Origin: Eublepharis macularius
Lineage: Eukaryota > Chordata > Lepidosauria > Squamata > Eublepharidae
Length of the DNA stretch: 64,000 nucleotides
Direction of reading: 5' to 3'
Assembly: GCF_028583425.1 (NCBI RefSeq)
Contig: NC_072805.1
Location: 13,278,001-13,342,000 of the forward strand
Within the stretch, counting starts at the first letter, position 1; every line of letters begins with the position of its first letter. Under the pieces are notes generated by a model. That model saw only the letters and a program-made list of their open reading frames with translations, searched no databases and had not been told where the DNA came from. The position numbers and the translations under genes are program-made. Shown here in pieces: positions 41,285-57,340 of this stretch.

Positions 41285-44150
41285 GGATATTCATTCATTT
41301 CTTTATTTACAGTCTTTTGACCAATCATATAACATCATTGTACTAAAAGAGAATTCAAAACATAAAAACAGAACAAATAAAACTATTGGAATTAAAATCA
41401 GTACATTAAAATTTCCAAGACCTGAATATCACCAAACGCTATTTGGCTACTTGATAGGTAAACTTGGCATTCTTATCAGACCGAAGGTAATCAAGTCTAG
41501 CTTTTTCAGTTACCTAATAACGGTATGATCATCTCATTACAAACTTCCCTATAATATGGGCTGCTAAAAAACATATGCTCTATAGTTTCCAACTCTTTTA
41601 ACAGACAGGAGCAAAGTCTTTCCAGATTATATCTGCCTTCCAATATGGCAAAAGGAAGGGCCAGGCACCTCGCCAGAGTAAATGCTCTTCTGAACCTATT
41701 TATTTCTAAGGATGTTAAGTAAACTGCTTGCTTCACAGTATTTTGAAAAATTGACCACACATACTCATTTTGTAAGCTAGCAATATCAGTTTGGTGTTCT
41801 ATATCCTCTGTCCTGTTTTACTAATCTCTTTGCCTGATCATAACTACAGGATAGGAGGACCTGAAGAGATAAGCCAATTCTACTAATATGACTCTGAACA
41901 GACTTAAGCCAAGACTTAGATTAAAAGCGGTCTCTGTTTATAAATGGGAGTAGGCCTTTGGGATTAAAATGTCCCTTCAGCCACATGTATATGGATGATA
42001 TACATACCCATGCTTCAACTTTAATGCTACCTGTCTCCAGTCTTACCCTAACATTAGATACATGCCTGGGGATCTGTAAAATTGTCCTTAAAAAGTTAGA
42101 TTGCACTCTTTCTTGTGGGGCGAAACATCAGGTGGGAGGCCCTACAAATGTCCCATACAATAACTGGGGCACCGCTTTAGCCCTAAATAGCTTAAGGGCT
42201 GCAGGCACACAACGTTGCCCTTGTGATAGGAAGAATTTTGTGATAGTATTTGCTAGTCTTCCTCCTTGATTGGCAGTACATTGATTGGAAGTACATTTAC
42301 TGTGACTGATCCTAGAACCTGATTCTTGTATAACTACTCCAAAATATTTAAAAAATTTAATTTGCTCAATCTGATGACCATCGATTGACCATGATCTATT
42401 TTTTGGTGTATTCACAAAAGCTACTATTTTAGTTTTCTGGTAGTTGATGGTAAGGAATTTACTTTCGCAGTATGAAGAAAGCTTCCTAAGAGCTCTCCTA
42501 AGACCTACCCGAGTTCTTGAAAGTAGCATTGTGTCATCAGCATACAGGAGCATTGATACAGATCACTCCCACGTTTAGGGGGATGGAGTTCAGGAGTATT
42601 AAGCTAGCTAGATAAATTGCTTATATAAAAAAATGAATAAAATCAGAGCTAGTAAGTATCCTTGTCTAAGCTGAATAGGCTCAGTAAGATGCCCTTGTCT
42701 GCTACATCTAACTCTTAAAAGAGTTTGATCATGCAGTTCCCATAAACAATATAGGAGTCTTCTGTCTATGGATGACTTTGACAATTTGTCCCATAGCTGA
42801 ATTCTTAATATGGAATCGAATGCAGATTTAAAATCCACAAAAAATCATATAGTGAAGTTACTCCCTTGGATGAGTATTTCTCAATAAGATGTTGAATAAT
42901 CAGACATTGATCAAGTGTTGATCTCTCTGATCTAAAACCCACCTGCTCTACTACTAAAACATTCTCTTGACCAAGCTAATCTAAAATTCATCTAAGAGAT
43001 GCCTTGCGTACAATTTACTAATAATAATATTTAACAAACTAATCGGACTGTAGTTTGATAGATTCGCTTTTACCCTTTTTATAAAAGGGAAATATTATGG
43101 CCAGACCCCATTGTTTAGGTGCACAGCCTTAGTCATCAATATAAGTAAAAAGAGGGGCCAAAAAAGAGGCCCACTAGTCTTATTTTCTTTCAAAAGTTTT
43201 GGTGAAATACCATCATATCCTGGTGCTTTGGTATTTTTCAATCGCTCTATGTCGGATTTGATCTCATGTGAGATTACAGGGGGCCATTTAGATGTATGGT
43301 CTATAGGTAATGGAAATGAACTCTGCACAGCATCCTCATATAACTCTTTGAAAAAAGAGGTTCACTGGTCAGGCGGTATACAGGAAGATATTAAGGGCTT
43401 GATTCCAGAGAGTGTATCAGTAATTAATTTCCGAAAAATGGATGTATTTTTGACCTTTGCTGCTTGAATCGTCGCCATATTTCTCTAGCATATTCCTTCT
43501 TATTGCATAGTATTTGTATTCTCTTTATTGGGTCAGCAACTGAAGCGGAACTTTTCCGTTTATTCTTTTCTTCAAAAATCAGATACTATTGATATATGTT
43601 AACTCTTTTTTTGCTGGCACATAACTTGAATTAAACCATGTTTTGGAGATGTTATATAATTTCATAGATAGGAGTACTATGGGGATAAAAGAGAAGTGGC
43701 TTTAGTTCTTGTATAAGGTTTTCATAATTGGTTATGGGATCATAAATGACCATCTAATTCGCAGATGGTCAGCAAGATTCAGACAACTTTCCAAGGGTTA
43801 AAATTTCTTTTACCCTTTGGGCTAATTCAGAGGACCATCTTACCCAGCATCCATACCTTTCCAGAGGTGCAATTAAAATAGGATATCTTGACACCAGACA
43901 GAGATCTTCAGGGTCCAGATGAATACATAAAAATAGGGGGAAATGATCCCTTTCCAAATATGGGAGAAAATCTTAATCTATGGGCAAATTGGAACAAACA
44001 GGCTTCCGCATAATCTGAATACTGATTATCTTCTCCTGATTGAATATAGTGCTCTGAGTTTTCTTCCATGGGCATTCCTTTTTTTAGTTTTTTCATGTTG
44101 TTAAATTTCCTTTTTCACAGTGGGTTAGTTGAGAACTACTCTTAACAGCC
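41285..44150 (-). mobile_element. Degraded non-LTR retrotransposon (LINE A)
   Basis: Read on the minus strand, the end of an endonuclease domain (SGVKISYF region, about 43,770-44,100, with DHFPLFL) is followed by reverse transcriptase blocks: LKNTKAPGYDGISPKLLKEN (near 43,240), DFKSAFDSI and LWDKLS (near 42,820), LYADDTMLLSRTRVGLRRAL with the catalytic YADD (near 42,540), NYQKTKIVAFV, then the C-terminal RVQSNFLRTILQIPRHVSN (near 42,090). Several frame breaks separate these blocks. The motif set is that of reptile LINEs with a 'SRTRVGL...NYQKTKI' thumb. I cannot decide between an R4-like and an I/Vingi-like clade. The 3' side lies near 41,285. Confidence 0.8.
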
Positions 44151-45895: not shown

Positions 45896-47033
45896 GGAAA
45901 AATTATATCTTTGGCCTCTTCTTATAAAAGGGAAAAGGAAAGGGCAGAGAAGAAATAATCTCCAAAATAACCTATTTGGAACAAATGCATAAATTGACAG
46001 TAAGTAAAAGAATAGCTATACAAACTTGCTAACTGAGAAGAAATTTTTTGGAAACATTGGAAACTTCTAACAGAAGTATTGGCATTCTCATCCCAGGTCT
46101 TTGTACCTTTTAGCCTAGAAAGTCAAGCAAAAGAAATCCTCAAGTTTTACCAACCACATTACTGGCCCTAATTAAAAAATTGTAACAAAATCTTCTCAAA
46201 TTTTGAACGTATTTGTTAATTACTATAAGGTTCTATATGCATCTTCCAATCCAAACTCGCATCAGATTGGGGAGTAATTGATCTTTAAATCAGCCCTTCT
46301 AAAACTTATAAAAGAACACAGAGACCTAATGGAAGTCCCTGTCACAGCTCAAGAACTTCTAACTGCTATCAAATGCTCGAAAAACAACAAATCCCGGGGC
46401 AGAGATGTATTCCCAAGTGAGTTTTACAAGAAATATGCAGATATCCTTATAGATCCCCTAGTCAAGGTTTGCAATGATGTCTTATTCTCTGGCAGGGTTC
46501 CCTAATCATGGCTGCTTTTCAGAATAGTAGTCATACCAAAACCAGATAAGGAGCTAACTAACCCAAGTTCTTACAAACCAATGTCATTAATATATCAAGA
46601 TGCAAAAATATTTACACCCATCATTGCTAATAAGTTAAACTCTTTCATCACACATTATGTTCACCAAGACCAAACAGGGTTCATGCCAAAACGAAATACA
46701 ACAGATAATATCCGTAAATCATTTGACATCATAAATTAAAGCAGGAAAAATAAAATTGAATCTCTTATACTATCAATTGGTATAGAAAAGGCCTTTTGAC
46801 AAACTAGAGCCTAAATACCTAATTTCACTCCAGAGTCTCATGGAATATGGGGGATGTGTTTTACGCACCATTCAAGACCCCTATTTCTCTCCAGTAGCCC
46901 AAATCTGAATAAACAACCTATCTTCAAAAGACTTCCTGCTGTCATGGGACACCAGACAAGGCTGTTCACTCTCACCATTGCTTTTTAGACTTTCTATTAA
47001 ATTCCTAGCCATAGCTATCCGCAAGAACCCCCA

Positions 47034-47139
47034 AATCCTTGGTATCAAAGTATAAGATAAGGAGATGAAACTCAGCCTGTTTGCAAAATCCTTGGTATCA
47101 AAGTATAAGATAAGGAGATGAAACTCAGCCTGTTTGCAG
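47034..47139 (+). repeat. 53-bp tandem duplication inside LINE B
   Basis: 'ggtatcaaagtataagataa' and the following 'ggagatgaaactcagcctgt' occur at 47,041 and again at 47,094, a period of 53 bases with almost no divergence. It lies just before the FADD catalytic block and was acquired after the element had begun to decay. Confidence 0.9.
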
Positions 47140-49200: not shown

Positions 49201-49744
49201 TTACAAGCAAGATGATTTGCAAAAGCTGCCACTGCCGCTGGCTTTCTCAGTCTCTTCAGGCAGCGATTCTAACAGAGGGGAAGGAACAGAATGAAAAGTG
49301 GCAGGGGAGAGGGACTTCAGTTCCCAGAAAGACGTGAGAAAACGATCAAGTGTCCTTCATGTGAAAAATGTCACGTGTAGCTTGGCTCTCATTTGTAGAG
49401 ATTCAGAAACAGATGCCTATGTATGGATTTCTCACTATTCTTGTCATGTGTCATTTCTGGCATGACAAGCAAGTCCTCCAGAGCATGTGCACTCTGCACA
49501 TGCACGCAAGCGATCCCCCCTGTGTGTACTCACCCCCCATCCCCTGCTATCAAGCCCCCCAGGCCTGGCCACCCCAGCCTCACTCTCCCGCAGCTTTTCT
49601 TAGCATGCATTGAAAGACAGCCGCAGTCAAGTAGCCTCCATCTTCAAGGGTTCCCCTGCCCCCTCCATGCTCGCTTTTGGGGCATGGACAGGCAGAGGAG
49701 CTGTGGGAAGCCTCTGCCCCACTGGTCTAGGATGAATCCCAAGG
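49201..49744. other. Unclassified sequence between LINE B and the repeat array
   Basis: Moderately GC-rich with 'gagcatgtgcactctgcaca'-like words around 49,480-49,680. It may be another insertion. No gene or RNA recognised. Confidence 0.35.
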
Positions 49745-52700
49745 TCAATTTCTATGTGGGGAAAGCATACGCAAAATAAATATTTGTCCCAAAGAAGAGT
49801 TTCCTAAAATAATCTCAAAGCATTTAAGTGCTTCTCTTCAGGTATGTCCCTGCAGGTAATTTTGGAGGAAGTATTGCAGCATAACTTGTGATGAAGCAGG
49901 CTAGGCCTCAGCTTCGTGAATTGAAGTTGTAGGCAGAAGATCTCAAGAAGTTTGCAGAAATACGTCTGGATGGCTGACAGGAGAGATAGGGAGGCAGAGG
50001 GATGGTAGAGCTTTACTCCTTGCAGGTGATCTTTCCTCATTGTGTCCCATGGTCTTCTTAATTCTCCCCTTTCCAATTTTATGTCCCAACAGAGATGGAG
50101 GACAAGCGAGCCCATGTAGTGGCTCCTGGGCCCCCAACCATCCCCTCCACCACCCTCTTCCCTTCCCTCCTCCGCCACTATCCCCATCCCCCACTCCATT
50201 TCTGACGATTCAGAAATGGAGTGGCTTCTGGGGCCCCAAACCACCCCTCCACCACCCCTTCCTTCCCTCCTCTTCTCTTTTCCCACCCCCGATCCCAATC
50301 CTGAGGAGATGGAGTGGCTCCCCGGCCCCCCAAAATAAAAACCCCGTAGAATTAGTAGGTAGTTTTTAGTTTTAGAAGTAAATTTTATGTCCCAACAGAA
50401 AAGAAGATGGCGGCCCATGGAAGATGAGCCCATGGAGTGGCTTCCGGGTCCCCAACCATCCCCTCCAACACTCTCTTCCCTCCTCCACCTCTATCACCGT
50501 CCCCTACTCTATTTTCAATGATTCGGAAATGGAGTGGCTTCCCGGTCACCAAAGCACCTCTCCACCATCCCCTCCTTCCCTCCTCTTCTCACCATCCCCT
50601 CCACCACCCTCTTCCCTTCCCTCCTCCACCACTATCCCCATCCCCCACTCCATTTCTGACGATTCAGAAATGGAGTGGCTTCCGGGGCCCCAACCATCCC
50701 CTCCACCACCCTCTTCCCTTCCCTCCTCCGCCACTATCCCCATCCCCCACTCCATTTCCGACGATTCAGAAATGGAGTGGCTTCCTGGACCCCAAACCAC
50801 CCCTCCACCACCCCTTCCTTCCCTCCTCTTCTCTTTTCCCACCCCCGATCCCAATCCCGAGGAGATGGAGTGGCTCCCCGGCCCCCCAAAATAAAAACCC
50901 CGTAGAATTAGTAGGTAGTTTTTAGAGTTTTAGTAGTAAATTTTATGTCCCAACAGAAAAGAAGATGGCGGCCCATGGAAGATGAGCCCATGGAGTGGCT
51001 TCCGGGTCCCCAACCATCCCCTCCACCACCCTCTTCCCTTCCCTCCTCCTCCACTATCCCCATCCCCCACTCCATTTCCGATGATTCGGAAATGGAGTGG
51101 CTTCCCAGACCCCAAACCACCCCTCCACCACCCCTTGCCAATTTTATATCCCAACAGAAAAGAAGATGGAGGAAAAGCGAGCCAATGGAGTGGCTTTCGG
51201 GCCCCCAATGATCCCCTTCACCACTCTCTTCCCTTCCCTCCTCCTCCACTATCCCCATCCCCCATTCCATTTCCGATGATTCGGAAATGGAGTGGATTCC
51301 CGGACCCCAAACCACCCCTCCACCACCCCTTCCTTCCCTCCTCTTCTCTTTTCCCACCCCAATCCCAATCCCAGCACCCAACTGTCCACCCTCTCTGCCC
51401 ACATCATCCTCTCCCTTAATACCGAGGAGGAGATGGAGTGGCTTCCCGGACCCCAAACCACCCCTCCACCACCCCTTCCTTCCCTCCTCTTCTCTTTTCC
51501 CACCCCCAATCCCAATCCCAGCACCCAACTGTCCACCCTCTCTGCCCACATCATCCTCTCCCTTAATACCAAGGAGGAGATGGAGTGGCTTCCCGGACCC
51601 CAACCATCCCCTCCAACACTCTCTTCCCTCCTCCACCTCTATCACCGTCCCCTACTCTATTTTCAATGATTCAGAAATGGAGTGGCTTCCCGGTCACCAA
51701 AGCACCTCTCCACCATCCCCTCCTTCCCTCCTCTTCTCTTTTTCCACCCCCAGTCCCAAGCCCAACACCAAAAGTCTGCAGAAATATGTCTGGCGGGCTG
51801 ATGCGAGAGCTACAGAGGCAGAGGGCTGATAGAGCTTTACTCCTTGCAGGTGATCTTTCCTCATTGTGTCCCATGGTCTTCTCAATTCTCTCCTTGCCAA
51901 TTTTATATCCCAACAGAAAAGAAGATGGAGGAAAAGCGAGCCAATGGAGTGGCTTTCGGGCCCCCAATGATCCCCTTCACCACTCTCTTCCCTTCCCTCC
52001 TCCTCCACTATCCCCATCCCCCACTCCATTTCCGATGATTCGGAAATGGAGTGGCTTCCCGGACCCCAAACCACCCCTCCACCACCCCTTCCTTCCCTCC
52101 TCTTCTCTTTTCCCACCCCAATCCCAATCCCAGCACCCAATTGTCCACCCTCTCTGCCCACATCATCCTCTCCCTTAATACCGAGGAGGAGATGGAGTGG
52201 CTTCCCGGACCCCAAACCACCCCTCCACCACCCCTTCCTTCCCTCCTCTTCTCTTTTCCCACCCCCAATCCCAATCCCAGCACCCAACTGTCCACCCTCT
52301 CTGCCCACATCATCCTCTCCCTTAATACCAAGGAGGAGATGGAGTGGCTTCCCAGACCCCAAACCACCCCTCCACCACCCCTTCCTTCCTTCCTCTTCTC
52401 TTTTCCCACCCCCAATCCCAATCCCAGCACCCAACTGTCCACCCTCTCTGCCCACATCATCCTCTCCCTTAATACCGAGGAGGAGATGGAGTGGCTTCCC
52501 GGACCCCAAACCACCCCTCCACCACCCCTTCCTTCCTCCTCTTCTCTTTTCCCACCCCCAATCCCAATCCCAGCACCCAACTGTCCACCCTCTCTGCCCA
52601 CATCATCCTCTCCCTTAATACCAAGGAGGAGATGGAGTGGCTTCCCAGACCCCAAACCACCCCTCCACCACCCCTTCCTTCCCTCCTCTTCTCTTTTCCC

Positions 52701-52830
52701 ATCCCCAATCCCAATCCCAGCACCCAACTGTCCACCCTCTCTGCCCACATCACCCTCTCCCTTACTGCAGATGACGAAATGGAGTGGCTCCCCAGCCCTC
52801 AAAAATAATGCTCCTGTAGAATTAGGAATA
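49745..52830 (+). repeat. Proline-rich EMEWLPG tandem-repeat element
   Basis: The left part (49,745-50,095) aligns with the copy at 56.7-57.0 kb and retains the peptide LQKYVWMADRRDREAEGW. After a pyrimidine-rich stretch ending 'tttatgtcccaacag' comes a long array around ATGGAGTGGCT, recurring at about 21 places from 50,216 to 52,779. From 51,433 the units are 146-147 bases: 51,433, 51,580, and after a re-inserted leader (51,770-51,945) 52,046, 52,192, 52,339, 52,486, 52,632 and 52,779. A 147-base unit encodes 49 residues of type EMEWLPGPQTTPPPPLPSL followed by Ser/Thr-rich STLSAHIILSLNT. The last unit ends LTADDEMEWLPSPQK and a stop at about 52,808. A higher-order repeat (50,340-50,400 and 50,890-50,960) carries the 3' sequence 'ccccgtagaattagtaggta'. 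I recognise no known family. The complementary strand is also open over long stretches. Confidence 0.75.
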
Positions 52831-52938: not shown

Positions 52939-53930
52939 TACTACTGGCCAAAATTGTGGAAACCTTTCGGAAAAAGTGCATTTTTGAGGTTTGATGGCTC
53001 ATAACACCACTTTTTTGGGGAGTAATACCATAAAATTATATAATAATGGAAAGAATTTAATCAAGAATGTAATACAATAAAGGTTGTTCAATTATCTGTA
53101 TTCTATCAAATGTTATAGCCAAATAACCAGGAAAAGGAAGCACAACTTGCTTACGTTGATATGAAGTAGCTTTCCTTCATTTGAATGTAGCCAATGAGCA
53201 TAAGTCTTTAGAGAGCCAATCAGGTGTCATCTTGTTTTGGCAATGAGCCAATCAGGTCACAGTAGGATTCAGCTATTGATGTCATGTATTGGAGCTGAGA
53301 GGAGGTCATTTGTCAGTGTGTCATGTGATTGCTATCAAGTTGGTTGGTTTGTTTTGTGTTCTTTCCTTCAGTGATCTTGTAAAACGTAGTAAAATTAAAG
53401 AAATGGCACAAAGAGTTGACTGGTCACCCAGAAAACGATGTAAAATAGTACTATTAAGTGAACAAGGCTACAGTTATGAAGAAATTAGAAGAAAAATTGG
53501 TGGAAACCAAAGGTGGCATTTCTAAATTTCTGAAGAGGTATAAGGCAACTCAGTCACTACAAAACCAGACTGGTAAAGGAAGGAAAAGGTACACACACAT
53601 GCAAGGGATGATAGAAGAATTGAGAGACTGAGCCTAGGTGACAGAAGAAAATCATCAGGGTGTATACAAAACGAAATGGCGCAATTCAATGTGAAGTTGA
53701 GTGCAAGGACTGTTCAATGCAGACTGGAGGAATTTGGTCTTAATGCTAGAATTCCACGAAAACAAAGGTTGAAAAGATTAAACTGGGCTAAAACCCATGT
53801 TAACTGGACAGCGGAACAATGGGACAGTGTTATTTGGAGTGATGAGACCAAAATCTCCCTGTTTGGTAGTGATGGCATAAAATACATGAGAAGAATGCCG
53901 TAGAAGACTAAAGACAGAATTACATGCAGA
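52939..53930 (+). mobile_element. Tc1-like transposon, 3'-truncated
   Basis: It starts after a TA at 52,939 with the inverted-repeat-like end CTACTGGCCAAAATTGTGGA. The transposase begins near 53,403 (MAQRVDWSPRKRCKIVLLSE, helix-turn-helix with EQGYSYEEIRRKIGG). It shifts frame near 53,500 (SKFLKRYKATQSL), then reads NVKLSARTVQCRLEEFGLNA, KRLNWAKTHVNW and VIWSDETKISLFGSDG, where the Asp of SDETK is the first catalytic residue of the DDE triad. The second Asp and the Glu are missing, as is the right terminal repeat. The break coincides with the start of the Ty3/Gypsy-derived sequence. Confidence 0.85.
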
Positions 53931-56320
53931 AAGGCACACTGCACACCTGTTGACTCAATGCCACCTGCCAGCCGACAGTGAACATGAGTCTTTACAGGAC
54001 TGTGCCTGAGAAGCTGGCTAGTTGCGTGATGTATGGGCATGCAGACTATAAAGCCTCCGGATGAGGCAACGTGTACATTGAGATGCTGACCTGCTGACAC
54101 TACCTGGATTGATTATTGGAAGACCTAAGCTCAGCTTGAATGTCCTGACTTTGGAACTTTCCCTGGCCTTGCTATTAAGAGAGACTGGAAGAGACCCTAT
54201 AACCTGATACTGGAGCCCGGCAACCAGTGCAGTTTGCATCCACTTCAATTAGCAGCAGTAAGGAAAACACAGCTGCCCAGAATCAAGCAGTACAAGGCCG
54301 AATACAGGAACTGACGGATGCTGTAGCTGTGCTTCAAGAACAAGCTGTTGGTACCGGGCCTGCTGCTTCTGTTGCAGCTCCTGCTGCACCCCCCCCCCCA
54401 AGGAAAATACCCCATTAGCCTCCCCAGTGATGTTGGGGGTGGTGTTCAAGAAGACTTTTCTGCTTTCTTGACACAGTGCAAGCTGTGCATTAAGCTTTAG
54501 GAAAGGCATTTTCCTAATGATAAGACCAAGGTCGGCTTCATTCTGAGCTTCTTAAAGAGGAAGGGAGCCGATCAGGCCACTCCGCTGCTGCCATCCCGCT
54601 CCCCATTGCTGACAAGCTTTTCAGACTTTCTAAACCACTTGAGTGCAGACTTTGCCAACCCTCAGAAGGAGGAGTGGACTAATCACTACCTCAGACGTTT
54701 ACATCAGGGGAGAGGCTTGGTGGCAGACTATACCACGGAATTCCAGCTACTGGCCCAAGACTTGGGGTGGAATGAGGCTGCTCTGACTGACCAGTACCTA
54801 GAGGAGGTGTTGGACAAAGTGGCTCAGGTGGACCCTCCCACAACTCTTGCTACTCTGATCTAGATCTGCATGCAAATTGACGGGAGCCTGAAGAACCAGA
54901 CACAGGCCCACCTTGGGACTCACCCTAGACCAGTGGAGCGGAGGCTTCCTTCAGGCCCTCTGCCTGCCCCTGCCCCCAGAGATAGCAGGGGTACCAATGC
55001 AGCTGGGGGCTGCTCCATCGCAGCTGTCAAGGGAGAAGGAGAGGCACTGTTCCTTGAATCTGTGCCTATATCGTGGCAGCAAAGGGCACTGTGCAAGCTG
55101 CTGCTCAAGCCCTGGAAGCAAGTGTTAAACTCCATGCCCCAAGTTGGAACGGGCCTTGCTATGTGGGGCTAGCAGCAGAATCTGGAAAGCCTCCCCACCC
55201 AGTGCAGGTCCTTGACCCCTCCTGTTCCCAGTAAAGCTCCAGTTCCCTGACTGCTGGATACTGACTCAGGCAATGCTGGACTCGCGGGCATCGCATTCTT
55301 ATAAGGATGCTAGTTTTGCCGAACAGCAGCAGGTCCCATTGCACTGGAAAGTGACCCCCCCCCATGCAAGTTGAGGCCACTGACGGGCAGCTTCTGCGAT
55401 CTGGTCCTGTCATGGGCCCTACCCTTGGCTATGTACATTCAAGACCGTTGGCAGCTACTCTGCTTTGACACTGCCTGTGTGCCTTTGTTCCCCCTACTGT
55501 TAGGGATGTCTTGGCTGGAAATGCATAACCCAGAGATCAATTAGGGCAGGCAGGAGATACGGTTCAGGAACCCATGCCCCCACAAAGCCCTGCCAACCAT
55601 GTTGAAGGCCACTATTCTCTCAACCCCATTGACTCTTCCAGCAGTGTATGCTAAATTCCAGAATGTCTTTGAGAAGGGGGCAGATCAGCTCCCCCCACAT
55701 CAGCCCTATGACTGCACAATCAAATTGGTGCCAGAAGCATCCCTGACTGCTGGGTGCTTATATTCCCTGTTTGGGTCAAAATGAGAGACACTGAGGGACT
55801 TCTTGACCAAGAACCAACAGCGGAGTTTTATACACCCATCAACCTCCCCAATGGCGGCACCGGTCTTGTTTGTAAACAGAAGAGTGAAGAGCTGCCCCTG
55901 TGTAACAAATATTGGCCTCTTAATAGGATCATAGTCCATGACCGCTACCCTTGTTTCCAGAGTTGCTGGAGCAACTGAAGGGGGAAGAGTTTAAACCAAA
56001 CTTGATCTCTGTGGGGCATACAACCTGATATGCATACAGACAGGGGACAAGTTGAAGACTCTATTCTGCACCCAGTATGGGGAGTTCGAATACCTGGTGA
56101 TGCCTTTTGGCCTGTCTTTAACACCCCATGGTGTTCCAGAAGTTCATCAATGACAACTTTAAAGCCCTGATGGACCAGTTTGTCATCATTGGGTGCACCA
56201 GGCAGTTTTGTTTGGGGTTGTCTTGCAATCACTGAGGACACTTTTGCAATGTCACCCACATGGTGAAGTTTTCGTGCTGGGCCATCATCACTTTGAGCTA
56301 GTTTGACCATTGCAGGGGGA
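53930..56320 (+). mobile_element. Degraded Ty3/Gypsy LTR retrotransposon (fossil)
   Basis: Gag-like capsid sequence of the Ty3/Gypsy type lies at about 54,230-54,900 (recognisable by LTSFSDFLNHLSADFANP and YLRRLHQGRGLVADYT), followed by pol-related text, with a protease-like stretch near 55,250-55,450 and reverse transcriptase-like text from about 55,600 to 56,180 (including [16 protein letters not shown]). The overall type resembles the Sushi-like chromovirus group from which mammalian domesticated gag genes derive. It is clearly broken, with many interruptions, lacks the 3' part of pol, and shows no intact pair of LTRs. I treat it as an old fossil copy. Confidence 0.8.
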
Positions 56321-56559: not shown

Positions 56560-56700
56560 AAGTACAGAATTTCAATTCTGAACTGACAGCTGCTAGAATA
56601 TGGATTACTGAATAATGGGAAACTAAAACTTTACCTAACATTTGAGATTGGTTAAGAAAAGTTTGTTATGAAATGTAAATGGCTCAGTTAACTGTTTATC
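56560..56700 (+). mobile_element. Small LINE ORF2 C-terminal remnant (possible)
   Basis: Conceptual text RIWITE and DWLRKVCYEM followed by MAQLTVYQ resembles the extreme C-terminus of L1/Tx1-type ORF2 proteins. It is short, so the assignment is tentative. It directly precedes the second EMEWLPG-family copy. Confidence 0.35.
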
Positions 56701-57340
56701 AATATCTGTGTAGGGTGGGGGAGCATATGCACAATAAATATTTATCCCAAAGAGGAGTTTTCCAGACATAATCTCAAAAGCATTTAAGGGCTTCTCTTCA
56801 GGTGTGTCCATGCAGATAAGTCTGGAAATAGCTATTGCAGCTTTACTGGAGATGAAGCAGGCTAATGAACAGCTTCCTGACCTGAAGAAGGAAGTTGTAG
56901 GCAGAGGTTTCCAGAAGTATGTCTGGAGGGCTAATAGGAGAGCTAGAGAGGCAGAGGGCTGGTAGAGACTTACTCCTTGCAGGGTGCCCCATGGACTTCT
57001 CAATTCCATGCTTTCCACATTTCATATCCCAACAGAAAAGAAGATGGCATTGGGTGGAACAGATGGAGTGGCTTCCGGGGCCACATCCCATTTCTCTTCC
57101 CTCCTCCACTTCCACCTCTGTCCCCATCCCTTACTCCATTTCCAGTGATGACTCAGAAATGGAATGGCTTCCTGATCCCCAAACCTCCCCTCCACCACCC
57201 CCTCCTTCCCTCCCCTCCTCCTCTTCTGCCCCCAATCCCAGAACCAATGCCCAGACCTCCACCCTCTCTACCCTCATCACCCTCTCTATTACAGCCGATG
57301 AGGAAATGGAGTGGCTCCCTGGCCTGCAAAAATGAGGAGA
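56700..57340 (+). CDS. Compact copy of the EMEWLPG family
   Basis: A single-unit relative of the 49.7-52.8 kb array. The first open block (about 56,811-56,963) reads MQISLEIAIAALLEMKQANE, then KKEVVGRGFQKYVWRANRRA, then REAEGW and a stop; the first half could form an amphipathic helix. The second block (about 57,000-57,333), behind an acceptor-like 'catttcatatcccaacag', has MEWLPGPHPISLPS, EMEWLPDPQTSPPPPPPSL and Ser/Thr-rich STLSTLITLSITADEEMEWL, ending GLQK and a stop. The end matches the end of the array ORF residue for residue in pattern. I do not recognise the protein. Whether it is translated is unknown; it could be a transposon ORF1. Confidence 0.4.

Follow-up and report, generated by a model that had tools for sequence, protein, structure and literature searches.

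The PRR20 macrosatellite on human chromosome 13 is described (PMC3018141) as a cluster of 6.6-kb units carrying a three-exon gene for a protein of 221 residues that is expressed mainly in testis. For NPIP (morpheus) on human chromosome 16, PMC2812944 describes segmental-duplication paralogues whose coding exon contains two kinds of internal repeat, with up to 39 type 1 repeats in one subgroup and few in the others, and calls morpheus positively selected. The locus analysed here lies in a 64,000-nucleotide stretch of DNA from the gecko Eublepharis macularius (C16:13,278,001-13,342,000 of a 2.24-Gb assembly in 72 contigs; the whole stretch is called the window). It contains a tandem array of units that translate as proline-rich peptides with the box EMEWLPG (50,093-52,808) and, a few kilobases downstream, a single copy of the same exon (57,036-57,335), both on the plus strand. 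Comparison with the whole genome showed that array and single copy belong, as damaged outliers, to a multi-copy family in which a proline-rich protein is encoded by the last exon. The whole is best explained, with a probability of about three in four, by a constrained and tandemly amplified proline-rich gene family of which the window array is a dead or dying copy. An apparent GC-rich minisatellite is in this way the entry point to a constrained-looking multi-copy gene family.

Genome-wide distribution and tandem unit

A search of the genome with the DNA of the single copy produced at least 103 matches, all on contigs C16 and C8 (best 40 of 48 candidates scored). A protein search of the same genome, in which the query was a hand-made mixture of C16 copies, produced at least 83 matches, again all on C16 and C8, and at least 31 matches spanned query residues 1-115 without a stop (best 150 of 1125 candidates scored). 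Among those listed, 19 stop-free matches were on C16 at 96-99% and three on C16 at 75-76%, while nine were on C8 at 92-94%. The copies were clustered at 11.5-12.1, 13.3-13.6 and 16.9-17.2 Mb on C16 and at 140.2-142.9 Mb on C8 with a spacing of approximately 20-34 kb within clusters, and the two window copies were the lowest-coordinate members of the C16 13.3-13.6 Mb cluster. Overall, the family appears to comprise dozens of tandem copies on two chromosomes, and some of the open frames look protected by selection.

The distance between two neighbouring units was 24.1 kb on C16 and 26.3 kb on C8, and a C16 unit was 93.7% identical to a C8 unit over 22,308 bases. An inner 2-kb piece of the unit had at least 40 matches, 39 on C16 or C8 and one partial match on C4 (best 40 of 128 candidates). 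The whole 24-26 kb unit is repeated and not the exon alone; therefore the gene rides on a large tandem segment and not on a mobile element. The first-pass annotation of the window had proposed a dispersed element with ends of its own, and this was replaced by a clustered tandem unit when the gecko assembly was searched. The unit spacings showed the large head-to-tail unit with a gene inside that characterises a macrosatellite, and the frame was kept across units (30 of 39 loci; ratio of nonsynonymous to synonymous differences per site, pN/pS, of 0.24 among intact copies). At C16:11.89-12.09 Mb, exon-duplicated copies alternated with two plain copies every 70-75 kb or so, which suggests a higher-order repeat of three units.

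The family had no recognised relatives in the protein libraries searched. Pfam at E values up to 5 gave no match for the single-copy pieces or for two full predicted proteins, NCBIfam gave none for the single-copy pieces, and PDB gave chance matches only (best E 0.98). Viral and prokaryote collections, in which vertebrate relatives would occur only by contamination, produced no useful match. The letters MEWLP were absent from the literature searched, and none of the squamate papers listed had a title on this family.

Predicted gene and apparent codon-level constraint

We infer a two-exon gene in which MVKLYSSQ or MVELFSLQ would be followed, across a 67-bp intron, by KRRW...MEWLPGPQK, giving about 108-123 residues in plain copies. 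At the predicted splice junction a leader ending in ...CAG would be joined to AAAAGAAGATGG, and an example peptide of the predicted family protein is QVEPMEWLPGPQPNPPPPLPSLLFSFPTPNPNPSTQLSTLSAHTT. A census of leader plus acceptor, made with a search pattern (≤6 substitutions) that itself favours start and donor, found 39 loci, the window included. The donor was GT in 38, the intron measured 67 bp in 37 and the putative ATG was present in 35. In 30 loci, counting the single copy, the exon frame reached a MEWLP- or MEWIP-type C-terminus. The other nine comprised five array-type loci whose first exon copy stops early, two array starts in the window and the loci at 17.13 and 17.16 Mb. The census runs without the C8 copies at 140.244, 140.277, 142.848 and 142.883 Mb and without the two closest relatives of the single copy, whose leader did not match the pattern.

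An exact pattern of acceptor plus exon start was present in 22 copies, and all 22 stayed in frame as far as the C-terminal box, which reads MEWLPGPQK in 21 and MEWIPGPPK in one; this set leaves out loci L001-L008, among which L004-L008 have an early stop. For 21 aligned copies of at least 95 codons each, retained for being intact, pN/pS was 0.24 between C16 and C8 (80 pairs) and 0.36 within C16 (120 pairs), and variable columns numbered 10, 15 and 29 at codon positions 1, 2 and 3. As an internal control, 135 open frames from both strands of one C16 unit were compared with one C8 unit (≥60 codons, ≥50 codons aligned and ≥5 changes). The exon ranked first of the 135 for synonymous excess with 13 synonymous and 7 nonsynonymous changes (pS 0.154, pN 0.026, z 4.30; median z 0.35), which corresponds to a binomial p of 1.2e-4 before correction for 135 tests. 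The second rank was taken by the antisense of the exon itself (z 4.29), which contained frameshifts and stops, and the third-ranked frame resembled, in our reading, a reverse-transcriptase remnant.

The excess was specific to one frame. In two C16-C8 pairs the EMEWLPG frame showed synonymous to nonsynonymous ratios of 11:7 and 10:8, against 3:15, 4:14, 4:14 and 3:14 in the other two frames, so the earlier choice of EMEWLPG as the coding frame was borne out in the wider family. The MEWLP boxes had 5 synonymous states and 1 nonsynonymous state in 15 codons, and the linkers 19 and 29. The two length differences of exon 2 between C16 and C8 (6 and 51 bases) were both multiples of three, compared with 34 of 126 other indels, a set that may also count the 6-base difference of the exon. 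Taken at the level of sequence, these comparisons demonstrate that most loci examined keep the exon in a single reading frame and that it has a synonymous excess.

Repeat structure and decay of the window array

The motif scan found 22 ATGGAGTGGCT cores at 50,114-52,779 (20 exact and two with one mismatch), in agreement with the approximately 21 cores over 2.6 kb reported at first. The exact core was absent from the rest of the window beyond the array and the single copy, and none was found on the minus strand of the window with up to one mismatch allowed. The array (50,093-52,808) is a mosaic of A units of about 102 bp, with the peptide MEWLPGPQPSPPPPSSLPSSxTIPIPHSISDDSE, and B units of about 147 bp (MEWLPGPQTTPPPPLPSLLFSFPTPNPNPSTQLSTLSAHIILSLNTEEE). 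Core spacings were 102, 93, 123, 97, 141, 102, 93, 125, 102, 93 and 102 bp for intervals 1-11 and 146, 147, 97, 267, 102, 146, 147, 147, 146 and 147 bp for intervals 12-21. Tandem Repeats Finder (TRF) gave a score of 1378 for the 147-bp array and 1395 for the doubled period, and the core of the array (52,042-52,793, plus strand) consisted of about five B units of 146 or 147 bp with 96% matches. The unit lengths of 146-147 bases named in the first-pass annotation were thus recovered; three of the seven such spacings are 146 and break the frame of 49 codons.

Frame reading placed five exon starts in the array, all on the plus strand, at 50,093, 50,399, 50,957, 51,158 and 51,917. From these, the EMEWLPG frame ran for 8, 40, 84, 17 and 17 codons to a stop. 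One long coding frame kept to the terminal stop, as first proposed, was ruled out by these early stops together with the 146-bp spacings. The acceptor-like sequence that had been noticed before the array occurs five times within it, as three exact copies of TTTTATGTCCCAACAG and two with one mismatch. The array also contains internal copies of the stop with the beginning of the 3' flank, giving stops at 50,336 and 50,892, and copies of intron and leader pieces. The longest high-identity duplication was 471 bp (51,133-51,603 to 51,892-52,362) with four mismatches (segment score 455; match +1, mismatch -3). The terminal TAA (52,806-52,808, plus strand) follows MEWLPSPQK.

Differences among the seven B units of the array were even over codon positions (extra states 6, 3 and 4 at positions 1, 2 and 3). 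This is one part of what had been named as refuting a coding origin, and it holds for the window array and not for the family. Judged from the window alone, the array looks like decay. One hint of older constraint came from the MEWLP boxes: in seven classes (three from the single copy and four array consensuses) the three variable columns were all synonymous third positions (E, L and P), a pattern expected once in 455 by chance, with the columns chosen after the data had been seen.

In-frame expansion at a sister locus

At one sister locus the B unit was multiplied in frame to ten copies. This locus, L043 (C16:17057500-17063500, minus strand), contains an intact exon of 542 codons, in which one A unit is accompanied by ten B units of exactly 147 bp each. 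Its core spacings are 102 and then ten times 147, so that all cores are in phase, and it ends in MEWLPGPQK TAA. In-frame expansion, first suggested for the window array, is accordingly seen as a family trait at C16:17.06 Mb, with 12 MEWLP boxes there and three in most copies. The neighbouring L044 (17.107 Mb) has a long exon that is frameshifted near its end, and the array-type loci at 11.91, 11.98 and 12.06 Mb contain further exon copies ending in MEWLPGPPK. Plain, exon-duplicated, ten-unit and broken versions stand side by side in one genome as a natural series for studying the in-frame growth of coding repeats, the circumstances of their decay and possible selection on motif number.

Single copy in the window

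Exon 2 of the single copy (57,036-57,335, plus strand; frame reading and locus census) is open for 99 codons, with CTG at the start position and an altered donor. It consists of one A unit (96 bp), one B unit and a terminal box, and contains three MEWLP boxes with cores at 57,063, 57,159 and 57,306. The first-pass annotation had begun this copy at 56,700, which is upstream of the leader. The C-terminal end that it described as common to both window copies was confirmed: in the last array unit, as in the single copy, the peptide closes with MEWLP, two further residues and QK before the stop codon (TAA at 52,806 and TGA at 57,333, respectively), and many copies in the genome share this end. Single copy and array were 73.7% identical over 56,715-57,240 and 49,756-50,297. 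The nearest two relatives of the single copy lie on C8, match it at 93-94% and contain frameshifts. A claim that exons evolve faster than introns, as in NPIP, was considered (Fisher p 0.004 for block 1 against the single copy and 0.035 for the array consensus) and dropped because the array exon has decayed.

Directly upstream of the single copy, at 56,560-56,700, a frame has what we take to be a resemblance to the tail of LINE-1 ORF2 (TAARI...W...). A Pfam search with the corresponding piece of the L050 locus (C16:22493800-22496800) gave no match.

Leader and intron sequences

In the array copy, leader copy 1 with the predicted first exon occupies 49,756-50,025 (plus strand; alignments and census), with a putative ATG at 50,002 (MVELYSLQ) and the donor after 50,025. 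It is followed by the predicted 67-bp intron GTGATC...CCCAACAG at 50,026-50,092 (plus strand), equal in length in 37 of 39 loci. A second, partial leader with a 67-bp intron lies inside the array (51,772-51,916, plus strand; alignment and census), where the start codon position reads CTG. The leader open reading frame (ORF) of the single copy has 51 codons (56,810-56,962, plus strand; ORF scan and genome matches). The KYVW..REAEG leader peptide had been called conserved. It was intact in the single copy and two C8 relatives, and 37 of 40 matches were partial or contained stops. A conserved coding exon with this peptide was therefore rejected for the amplified copies and kept for this three-member subfamily.

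Leader DNA matched only this family and the L050 locus at C16:22.495 Mb (best 40 of 47 candidates scored). In L050 the leader and acceptor are retained at about 73% and the sequence after the acceptor is different; therefore the leader may predate the proline-rich exon, or was cut from it. In a tree built from the leaders of the 39 loci (27 distinct sequences), the single copy and the inner leader of the array stood apart, and with 17 of 24 forks open and bootstrap values unsettled nothing further was drawn from it. A weak match to the leader (E 0.014; minus strand, 36,670-36,521) was not recovered by nucleotide profile search.

Boundaries and neighbourhood

The array copy is bounded by other elements, with gypsy sequence at 49,745 and Tc1-like sequence from about 52,945 (the latter read by eye). 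The gypsy sequence is an antisense Ty3/gypsy gag fragment (49,665-49,745, minus strand), 81% identical to 54,910-54,990 inverted. The same 5' junction was found in all 11 aligned C16 and C8 copies, and the single copy is without it. The 25 longest of 79 inverted-repeat pairs of the array copy were all internal, which does not fix the true ends of the copy, and the two pairs of the single copy were short and internal (no systematic search was made for target-site duplications). Four A-to-core borders in the array have perfect 15-bp inverted repeats with a 4-base loop (CCACTCCATTTCYGA / TCRGAAATGGAGTGG) at 50,191-50,224, 50,645-50,678, 51,067-51,100 and 52,021-52,054. Two versions exist, distinguished by a compensating C-G / T-A pair, and the single copy pairs at 9 of 15 positions. 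Template switching can create and repair hairpins of such kind, according to PMC8794818.

SF3B3 (minus strand; PDB match E 2e-67), SNORD111 and COG4 (plus strand) were identified upstream of the array, and the COG4 exon at about 37 kb precedes both array and single copy. A Tc1-like transposase remnant (HTH_Tnp_Tc3_2, E 5e-11; 53,377-53,903) and a Ty3/gypsy gag remnant (Retrotrans_gag and DUF4939; 54,501-54,863), about 84% like the gypsy piece of the 24-kb units, lie between the two copies. A reverse transcriptase fragment (RVT_1) was found at 42,131-42,562 on the minus strand, and two perfect 53-bp tandem copies (TRF) at 47,033-47,138.

Discussion

In the proposed gene family, unequal exchange would multiply both the 24-kb segment and, at a second level, the 147-bp unit. 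Gain of a whole unit keeps the frame because 147 bases are 49 codons, and one-base losses like those in the window would kill a copy. The protein would be mostly disordered, with each EMEWLPG box perhaps a short docking motif, because the boxes are conserved and the linkers loose; extra units would then raise the number of motifs per chain. A more speculative version, which we consider rather unlikely, describes a lineage-restricted orphan family on a 24-kb macrosatellite of two chromosomes, coding for a multivalent string of EMEWLPG docking motifs whose dose would be tuned by gene number and by motifs per gene, and which may be germline-expressed or a selfish, drive-like amplicon.

If the family were instead a non-coding macrosatellite or minisatellite, its frames would be open since the DNA is C-rich and stop-poor, and its arrays would be neutral. 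Random sequence with the dinucleotide make-up of the single copy is indeed open over 99 codons in 6% of cases for a given frame and 28% for any of six, most translated copies have a second frame that stays open across the exon, and the window array differs evenly over codon positions. Against this explanation stand the first rank of the exon among 135 frames and the frame-specific pattern in two pairs, as well as the exon length differences in threes and the in-frame reading of all 22 exact-pattern copies outside L001-L008. A plain minisatellite would be a family without codon constraint, and constraint was found in the family, yet none among the ten units of L043 or in the window array. We regard the non-coding explanation as improbable. 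Still less can be said for a mobile element coding its own proline-rich protein, which appears most improbable. The array copy and the 11 aligned C16 and C8 copies do share a 5' gypsy junction, and Tc1-like and gypsy remnants lie between the window copies, but the matches listed are confined to clusters on two contigs (at least 83 with protein, from the best 150 of 1125 candidates, and 103 with DNA, from the best 40 of 48), the whole 24-kb unit is repeated and the limits of the array copy are set by other elements.

The exon could also be the last one of a larger gene with its upstream exons elsewhere in or outside the unit, in which case MVKLYSSQ would not be the real start. The ATG is absent from two intact C8 copies, the leader ORF is intact in all three members of the single-copy subfamily, and the C16:22.495 Mb relative joins the same leader and acceptor to another 3' part. 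However, no other same-strand frame of the unit showed a comparable synonymous excess among frames of at least 60 codons, a limit that short upstream exons would escape. This larger gene is a possibility to which we give a minority share. That the window copies themselves are functional is very doubtful: the single copy does retain an intact 99-codon exon with three boxes, but the array has stops and frameshifts, and the single copy has a CTG at its start position, an altered donor and frameshifted closest relatives on C8.

Several results weigh against a constrained gene family or limit its reach. The main C16-C8 contrast rests on approximately 20 substitutions, and the pairs are not independent because the copies are near identical and probably exchange sequence. 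Distant members may have been missed, as 150 of 1125 protein candidates were scored. In the gene model, a 67-bp intron is short, and the putative ATG is lost in four of 39 loci, including two otherwise intact C8 exons, so the true start may lie elsewhere. In all five array-type loci (L043-L047, the same loci as L004-L008) the exon copy next to the leader stops after 5 codons, so that use of the 542-codon frame would require splicing to pass over this copy to the following acceptor. The five loci were left out of the pN/pS selection test. The ten units at C16:17.06 Mb showed pN (0.020) above pS (0.009) on seven variable columns, which makes their expansion look recent and not visibly constrained. 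Intron-like parts of the two window copies (49,756-50,092 against 56,715-57,035) were 88% and 84% identical and exon-like parts 76% and 73%. A ratio of nonsynonymous to synonymous rates (dN/dS) below 1 had been put forward as a check on coding. Between contigs pN/pS was 0.24, and in the window single copy and array consensus gave a dN/dS of 0.69 with a bootstrap range of 0.39-1.34. On this value and the even codon positions, an assessment from the window alone had been that there was no coding constraint at all; it was revised after the genome copies were compared. Finally, the docking role of the EMEWLPG box is a guess.

Compared by organisation and not by sequence, the gecko family resembles PRR20 in its clustered, near-identical tandem units with a small multi-exon proline-rich gene. 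It differs from PRR20, which lies on one chromosome, in its 24-26 kb unit on two contigs and in the added expansion of repeats within the exon. With NPIP it shares a way of working, namely in-exon repeat expansion in some paralogues; however, the gecko exon shows a synonymous excess where NPIP is called positively selected. The gene is embedded in a large tandem unit like DUX4 in the D4Z4 macrosatellite, but DUX4 is a homeobox transcription factor and the gecko protein has no recognised domain. Ordinary coding minisatellites, such as the variable number of tandem repeats (VNTR) exons of mucins, have, inside an exon, a repeat unit whose length is divisible by three. The gecko family is like a VNTR exon in this respect, and unlike it in that large expansion is limited to a few loci and that the parent gene, too, is amplified in tandem.

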